A program made the position numbers and the translations under genes. Below the pieces are notes generated by a model. The model made no database searches. It saw nothing but the letters and a program-made list of their open reading frames with translations, and had not been told where the DNA came from. This document shows, in pieces, positions 1-1,310 of a DNA stretch of 52,953 nucleotides (positions are counted from its first letter, which is position 1; each line of letters starts with the position of its first letter). Where the stretch lies: contig NZ_KI912402.1 in the NCBI RefSeq assembly GCF_000518245.1, positions 1 to 52,953 of the forward strand, given 5' to 3'. The stretch comes from Brachyspira alvinipulli ATCC 51933 (GTDB lineage: Bacteria; Spirochaetota; Brachyspiria; Brachyspirales; Brachyspiraceae).

Positions 1-95
1 TTATTTATTTATTTATTTATTTATTTATTTATTTATTTATTTATTTATTTATTTATTTATTTATTTATTTATTTATTTATTTATTTATTTATTTA
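1..95 (+). repeat. Perfect TTTA tetranucleotide tract, truncated by window edge
   Basis: Seen directly: TTA followed by 23 uninterrupted TTTA units, ending at base 95. The tract continues beyond the left edge, so its full length is unknown. On the + strand it has no stop codon in any frame; in the frame of the gene that follows it encodes a repeating Leu-Phe-Ile-Tyr motif. Because 4 is not a multiple of 3, gain or loss of one unit changes the downstream frame. This is the classic form of a slipped-strand-mispairing contingency tract. Confidence 0.97.
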
Positions 96-1310
96 GCTTC
101 TCCTCAAGCTTTCTCGCAGAATATAAATATAGAATATAATCAATTCATAACAAAATATTTTCAGATGAAAAATCAATATAATCAAGGATATATTGATTAT
201 ATTTCAGAAAATGAATATATAATAAATTTTTTTAATAATACAAAATTGTTTATAGAAGATATTAATCCAGATTTTTGGACAGATGTAATTAATAATCCGT
301 CACTAATAGAAAAGTATCCTGAATCTTCTGATGTAATACTTCTTATGTCTAGTATAGAATTCCTATATGATATTTATAATTTTAATATGTCAGCAGGTTA
401 TGTCATAGAGCAGAAAATTAAAAGGAAAATACAATTTAATGCCGCTTCTGGAGATAATTACGGATTAATAATTCCTCTGCATTATCCATTAGGCACAATT
501 GGAATTGGGGCTTACTTAAACTTTCAGCTTGAAGATAAAAAAACTTCATTAAGCTATGAGAATGATTTTGCAAGACTTATAAACTCTATAGATAAAGTTC
601 CTTTTCCATATATTGAAGCTTTTACTTCTATTAATTGCTGGACTGCACCTATGTCTATAGGGATTAGATTTGCATTTATGCCTGGTTATAGTGAATTTTA
701 TAATCTTTTTGTTAAAGATACAAAGATAGAAACATTCGGATTGCATGCTGCTATGGATTTAAAATTTTATGTTTATAGAGATAAATATTTTTTTGTTGAT
801 GCGAGAGCAGATTTCAATGTAGATTACGGAAAGTTTAATTTAGGGTTTATGAATGATAGAAATATATTTCAAATACACAATTCAGCTAATAGTACATATA
901 CAGGAGCATATTTTTCAACATCAGCTGATATTAAGAGTAAATGGCTTAGTTTTGCTTTAACTCCTAAATTAGTAGGAGGATTAAAATTAAAGGATCAGGT
1001 TCCTTATATAGATTATTTTGCTATATATGGTTTTGTCGGAGTGGATTTAATATATACTTCTATGGATTCTAATTCTGAATTTGGTATAAATAGCATAACG
1101 GAAAATATTAATAATCAAACTTATGAATTTAGTGCAAGTATGCCTAAAATATCAATAAAAGATAATTATTTTACTTATGATATAAGGGTTGGTGCCGCTA
1201 TTGATATATTTTATCAGTCTTTATCATTTGAATATGCAATATTTTCAAAAAGTTTTTCAGTTATGTTTATACCTTTTGTTTATAGATTTGTTGGAGAACC
1301 CAAATTATAA
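3..1310 (+). CDS. Outer-membrane beta-barrel-like surface protein with TTTA-encoded signal peptide (5' partial)
   Basis: The reading frame is open from base 3 through the TTTA tract and into the mature protein, so the start lies left of the window. The ATG at 165 has no ribosome binding site and lies inside the region homologous to the paralogue at 3902-5188, so it is unlikely to be the start. The visible N-terminus is about 31 residues of LFIY repeat, then LASPQAFSQN, a plausible cleavage region; the paralogue has ISYTLYSQND at the same place. The body is rich in alternating aromatic and polar residues (for example GDNYGLIIPLHYPLGTIG, VYRDKYFFVDARADF) and ends YRFVGEPKL, consistent with a spirochaete outer-membrane barrel. 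Brachyspira encodes variable surface protein families, but assignment to a named one cannot be made from sequence alone. The next gene starts 13 bases downstream, and its Shine-Dalgarno overlaps this stop codon. Confidence 0.85.
   Translation: MYLFIYLFIYLFIYLFIYLFIYLFIYLFIYLASPQAFSQNINIEYNQFITKYFQMKNQYNQGYIDYISENEYIINFFNNTKLFIEDINPDFWTDVINNPSLIEKYPESSDVILLMSSIEFLYDIYNFNMSAGYVIEQKIKRKIQFNAASGDNYGLIIPLHYPLGTIGIGAYLNFQLEDKKTSLSYENDFARLINSIDKVPFPYIEAFTSINCWTAPMSIGIRFAFMPGYSEFYNLFVKDTKIETFGLHAAMDLKFYVYRDKYFFVDARADFNVDYGKFNLGFMNDRNIFQIHNSANSTYTGAYFSTSADIKSKWLSFALTPKLVGGLKLKDQVPYIDYFAIYGFVGVDLIYTSMDSNSEFGINSITENINNQTYEFSASMPKISIKDNYFTYDIRVGAAIDIFYQSLSFEYAIFSKSFSVMFIPFVYRFVGEPKL

Follow-up and report, generated by a model that had tools for sequence, protein, structure and literature searches.

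The stretch analysed (i.e. the window) comprises the first 52,953 nucleotides of contig C1 of Brachyspira alvinipulli ATCC 51933 (G000), whose 3.42-Mb assembly consists of 22 contigs. Its first gene encodes a predicted surface beta-barrel protein and enters the window inside a tract of TTTA repeats, a candidate phase-variation switch. Bases 1-95 form a perfect period-4 run, confirming an initial annotation that had described at least 95 bases of uninterrupted TTTA repeat in frame with the barrel open reading frame (ORF; frame 3). The second-longest period-4 run in the window was 12 bases and the maximum among 40 surrogates drawn from a first-order Markov model of the window was 17 bases, indicating that the tract did not arise by chance. 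A scan of a 417-kb sample of the genome detected no period-4 runs of 18 bases or more beyond the two halves of this tract. Genome-wide, TTTA tracts of at least six units are present at two places, one being the start of C1 and the other, on the opposite strand, the start of contig C11.

The tract is interrupted by an assembly break and its other half lies at the end of C11, with 95 periodic bases on each side of the break. Comparisons were made with relatives represented by one genome per species. Seven relatives share the gene order glgP, LysM (divergent), barrel and leucine-rich-repeat (LRR) lipoprotein and, as only these two contig ends carry at least six TTTA units, the comparison identifies them as the two sides of one gene. 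Since the tract is bounded by CGA on the left and GCT on the right, 4n must be at least 95 and the number of units (n) in both halves together is at least 24. A break between contigs C4 and C13 within an AACTTTA repeat likewise shows 95 periodic bases per side. The same value at both breaks points to a k-mer limit of ~95, and the tract therefore probably contains at least 25 units. Mixed tract lengths within the culture could also have caused the break in the TTTA tract.

The initial annotation had left the start codon to be sought to the left of the window. An ATG on C11 enters the tract after five codons (Table 1). Read outward, C11 ends TTGATT-17-TATAATacaaattgttgggattatttATGAAACAGCTGCGA(TTTA), with the promoter-like sequence ~20 bases before the ATG. 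Only one start frame, that of the ATG, was found downstream of the promoter. Starts in other frames were considered and rejected; the only TTG codons after the promoter are in the frame of the ATG and an out-of-frame TTG is part of the -35 box. The repeat reads TTT ATT TAT TTA (i.e. FIYL) in any forward frame and is free of stops. Frame analysis recovered the two off-frame stops of the annotation (TAG at 94-96 and TAA at 137-139) and its open frame 3, which runs from base 3 to the TAA at 1308-1310. Gain or loss of one unit was computed, as the annotation had proposed, to break the ORF at one or other of these early stops. Consequences were computed for n = 24-30; for n = 24-29, out-of-frame products would have 39-56 residues as compared to at least 441 in frame. 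The further claim that the present register is ON is not supported. The contig ends inside the tract and the tract is stop-free in all frames. Any true register would thus leave the ORF open from base 3, and nothing is implied about an ON or OFF state. With a single start frame after the promoter, about one tract length in three would be ON.

Table 1. Features of the barrel locus and its neighbours (window coordinates unless a contig is named)
Feature	Position	Strand	Remarks or basis
Promoter TTGATT-17-TATAAT (putative)	contig C11, L031:158-130	minus	sequence resemblance
Start codon ATG	contig C11, L031:109-107	minus	reads ATG AAA CAG CTG CGA, then TTTA repeats
TTTA tract, left-hand part	contig C11, L031:1-94	minus	C11 contig end
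TTTA tract, right-hand part	1..95	+	encodes (FIYL)x, predicted hydrophobic signal-peptide core; extends leftward onto contig C11
Off-frame stop TAG (frame 1)	94..96	+	would terminate translation at n = 2 mod 3
Signal-peptide end ASPQAFS	96..116	+	cleavage after S (between AFS and QN) predicted from orthologs, including MKYFLHVYIFICLYAPIAFS before Q
Off-frame stop TAA (frame 2)	137..139	+	would terminate translation at n = 1 mod 3
Mature barrel protein QNINIEYNQF...VGEPKL	117..1307, stop TAA 1308-1310	+	helical N-terminal part, then beta barrel (predicted)
BspA-type leucine-rich lipoprotein (Pfam LRR_5), next downstream gene, conserved neighbour	1324..2073	+	Pfam, gene order
Second copy of the LRR lipoprotein, disrupted by a nonsense codon as well as indels; outside the switch	2151..2895	+	sequence comparison
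LRR lipoprotein, broken	2980-3898	minus	two small indels
Paralogous barrel protein, 48% identical, ordinary repeat-free signal peptide	3902..5194	-	sequence comparison

With the two contigs joined in frame, the signal peptide would be MKQLR(FIYL)xASPQAFS, followed by QN. In repeat-free orthologs, including that of B. hampsonii, the signal peptide takes forms such as MKYFLHVYIFICLYAPIAFS, followed by QDIN. An ortholog encoding a protein 89% identical to the G000 barrel was present in the metagenome-assembled genome of an uncultured sister species of Brachyspira (G021, L036). Its sequence, ATGAAACAGCTGAGA(TTTA)6GCTTCTCCTCAGGC, contains exactly six units in frame within one long ORF and specifies the signal peptide MKQLRFIYLFIYLASPQAFS, followed by QDIN. 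Because these six in-frame units occupy the same place, the tract is identified, by alignment, as the hydrophobic signal-peptide core. Six units give a signal peptide of 20 residues, the length also seen in six of the six repeat-free orthologs aligned. Copy number was 6 in G021 vs at least 24 in G000, a comparison between two different species only. Searching 393 Spirochaetota genomes for the exact pattern of ATGAAA and a TTTA tract within 30 bases retrieved only G000 and G021, and no copies of the locus were found in viral contigs and plasmids. The six units of G021 show a possible birth of the switch, i.e. from a short TTTA run spelling a good signal-peptide core.

The initial annotation had called the product a surface barrel, and structural modelling agreed with this description. 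No informative match was obtained in Pfam, NCBIfam, PHROGs or PDB sequence searches. AlphaFold2, run with seven relatives, predicted a helical region at residues ~1-112 and, beyond it, long beta strands (mean predicted local distance difference test score, pLDDT, 66; predicted template-modelling score, pTM, 0.57). Foldseek with this model returned no match at E <= 0.001, and its weak top matches were mostly outer-membrane barrels. With VIA-align, the model was aligned to the NalP translocator (Z 16.2, root-mean-square deviation 3.7 A over 227 residues), after which came other autotransporter translocators, OmpT and OpcA. The autotransporter likeness lies mainly in residues 82-393, at 6-10% identity in a low-confidence model and without a Pfam or NCBIfam match. 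Given a signal peptide by alignment and a barrel fold by predicted model, an outer-membrane barrel is reasonably supported as the fold class, whereas assignment to any narrower family is not supported. One of the three barrel paralogs in G000 carries the tract. The third paralog (C2:300671-301835, L122) has a frameshift near the C-terminal end in G000 and is open in G020 and G003.

All 396 codons after the tract are intact in G000. The dN/dS ratio between the G000 and G021 barrel genes was 0.17. When changes were assigned to the G000 branch at sites where three outgroups agree, 17 synonymous and 16 nonsynonymous changes were obtained (omega ~0.23, P = 3.6e-5 against neutrality). On the branch of G000 itself, purifying selection has acted on the barrel coding sequence.

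The tract is probably a translational phase-variation switch that acts by shifting the reading frame. This reading is based directly on the promoter-like sequence, the start codon, the position of the tract, the frame logic, the identity of the signal peptide, the copy number in the sister species and selection. Several features of frame-type phase-variable genes with simple sequence repeats were found at the locus: a perfect tract, a unit length that is not a multiple of three, a position inside the ORF after the start codon, early stops on gain or loss of one unit, and an intact downstream ORF under selection. A sigma-70-type promoter would drive the single start codon, and ribosomes would enter (TTTA)n five codons on and leave it in a frame fixed by n mod 3. 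At n = 0 mod 3, translation would read into ASPQAFS and QN, so that the full barrel would be made and, provided that the over-long signal still works, exported. At n = 1 or 2 mod 3, translation would stop 0 to ~14 codons past the tract. Slipped-strand mispairing at replication could add or remove one unit and thereby switch the protein between ON and OFF, if n changes within a strain and expression follows it.

The following points weigh against such a switch. The barrel gene is dispensable, being absent from the assembled G020 locus and interrupted by a stop in G024 and a frameshift in G022. Other long repeats found in G000 are intergenic, i.e. repeat growth is not confined to the barrel gene. 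A signal peptide with n of at least 24 (44 residues or more, of which ~36 are hydrophobic) may also export poorly. The loss in G020, whose glgP is the most similar to that of G000 (99% identity; flanking DNA ~93.5%), was resolved within one contig. There the LysM start codon is directly joined to window position 2963, and the barrel gene and two LRR genes are missing (L039). This is a clean deletion of ~3.3 kb together with whatever else the tract contains; the junction lies at reverse-complement base 5076, where TTTTTCAT is shared.

Neutral growth of the repeat in a disposable gene, in which a short TTTA run expanded and was never used as a switch while the gene was being lost, would accommodate much of this pattern. 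The clean absence of the barrel and two LRR genes from G020, the disrupted G022 and G024 orthologs, the broken LRR genes next to the barrel in the window, the frameshifted C2 paralog and the long intergenic tracts of heptamers in G000 (71 bases in one case, at least 95 in another) all speak for this reading. Neutral growth is nevertheless judged unlikely, as the 396 intact codons evolve under purifying selection on the G000 branch, the G021 tract is in frame at n = 6, and MutS and the PolI 5' exonuclease show no sign of loss. Repeat growth through loss of either of these two functions was considered and rejected, both genes being present in G000 with open frames. A gene that is selected yet often lost is expected for a switchable surface protein; the same pattern also fits decay.

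Instead of, or besides, on/off control, in-frame values of n (6, 9, 12 ... 24, 27) could tune length, grading export or leaving the protein anchored in the inner membrane. In-frame signal peptides would measure 44 residues at n = 24 and 48 at n = 27 as compared to 20 at n = 6, and the constant 20 residues in every repeat-free ortholog aligned suggest that length matters. The Opa repeat, which also lies in a leader peptide, is however described as an on/off switch (PMC3960869), and length tuning appears quite improbable. As TTTA is stop-free and itself spells a hydrophobic core, the two effects could be combined, with n mod 3 setting on/off and n setting signal length, from a normal cleaved peptide (n = 6) to an over-long, perhaps uncleaved anchor (n of at least 24); this combination is a rather unlikely one. 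An assembly artefact, i.e. a tract shorter than apparent or C11 and C1 not being neighbours, would suit the break of both contigs exactly in the tract with 95 periodic bases each, as at the C4/C13 heptamer break and as expected of a k-mer limit, but is highly improbable, as such a limit conceals length and cannot create it, the gene order shared by seven relatives places the contigs side by side, and the independently assembled G021 carries the tract at the same codons.

A frame-switching tract of this type would be a known kind of mechanism in a new combination of unit, place and organism. In Neisseria, the cut-off for phase-variation candidates is at least five tetranucleotide units (PMC5953494). 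The initial annotation had compared the locus with the Neisseria Opa genes, in which CTCTT repeats lie in the leader-peptide codons and n mod 3 decides expression (PMC3960869). The logic of this comparison was right, both repeats being within the leader peptide of an outer-membrane barrel. Opa differs, however, in having a pentanucleotide and a multi-copy family with nearly every locus switching, whereas the Brachyspira tract belongs to one of three paralogs; no sequence relation between Opa and the Brachyspira barrel was found, and two other systems are closer precedents. The AutA and AutB autotransporters of Neisseria and Haemophilus contain AAGC tetranucleotides within the signal sequence, with 17-30 units in Haemophilus autB and 6-40 in meningococcal autA (PMC5118866). 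They share with the Brachyspira barrel the frame-shift switching (predicted here), a surface beta-barrel and a gene often disrupted in natural strains. Their repeat unit and protein family are different, and the Brachyspira unit encodes FIYL, the hydrophobic core itself. The second precedent is icaC of Staphylococcus aureus, where TTTA repeats lie in the ORF of a membrane protein and a one-unit change shortens the product by truncation, so that a surface trait is switched (PMC7911514, PMC12771081). The unit is identical and again lies within the codons of a membrane protein, but in icaC it is internal to a multi-span protein of a Gram-positive organism and not in a signal peptide.

Among spirochaetes, the poly-G tracts of Treponema pallidum (tprE/G/J, tp0126 and tprL) mediate repeat-length phase variation of putative outer-membrane proteins (PMC7864442). 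The proposed Brachyspira switch shares with these a spirochaete host, phase variation by repeat length and the type of product, whereas the Treponema tracts are mononucleotides in promoters and alter transcription, not the reading frame. If switching occurs, the barrel gene would represent a reading-frame phase switch in a spirochaete, the spirochaete repeat-length cases found being these Treponema promoter tracts. Vsp proteins of a mass similar to the barrel exist in Brachyspira (PMC5415613), and the literature found on surface variation in this genus describes strain-dependent Vsp expression without such a switch. No report of a Brachyspira repeat switch was found in the open-access literature; a paywalled report could exist. 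The genus includes gut pathogens of pigs and birds, and if the reading is correct one polymerase chain reaction across the tract would provide a simple typing and expression test for a surface protein.

Other differences were observed around the locus. The LRR lipoprotein at 2980-3898 is broken because an AT run near 3628 has gained an AT and a T run near 3341 has lost a T. In G020 this gene is unbroken, with a frame of 308 residues. The LysM protein of G020 is only 64% identical to that of G000 despite 94-99% identity of the flanks.

Further repeats were observed elsewhere in the genus. The AACTTTA tract of at least 95 bases at the C4/C13 break (end of C4, L120:3906-4000; start of C13, L121:1-95) is intergenic, and a search of 25 other Brachyspira genomes did not find it. 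The genes flanking it resemble those for Rpn/PD-(D/E)XK transposase-type proteins. An intergenic tract of 10 TGAGTTT units is present in G000 (C4:107418-107488; L126:7418-7488), and TGAGTTT tracts that differ from it in copy number are present in G015, G017, G020, G021 and G022, some of them at contig ends. Long repeats of heptamers seem to have escaped notice as a feature of Brachyspira. TTTA tracts of at least six units in G007, G022 and G025 were considered as further cases of the barrel design and rejected as intergenic. Those of G007 (C109:4667-4702, nine units; L070) and G022 (C6:74328-74351, six units; L072) are found at equivalent intergenic positions, in both cases upstream of a lipoprotein-like gene (MKLICIFMIILTLFNLSAC...), and this tract is possibly a spacing-type promoter repeat.
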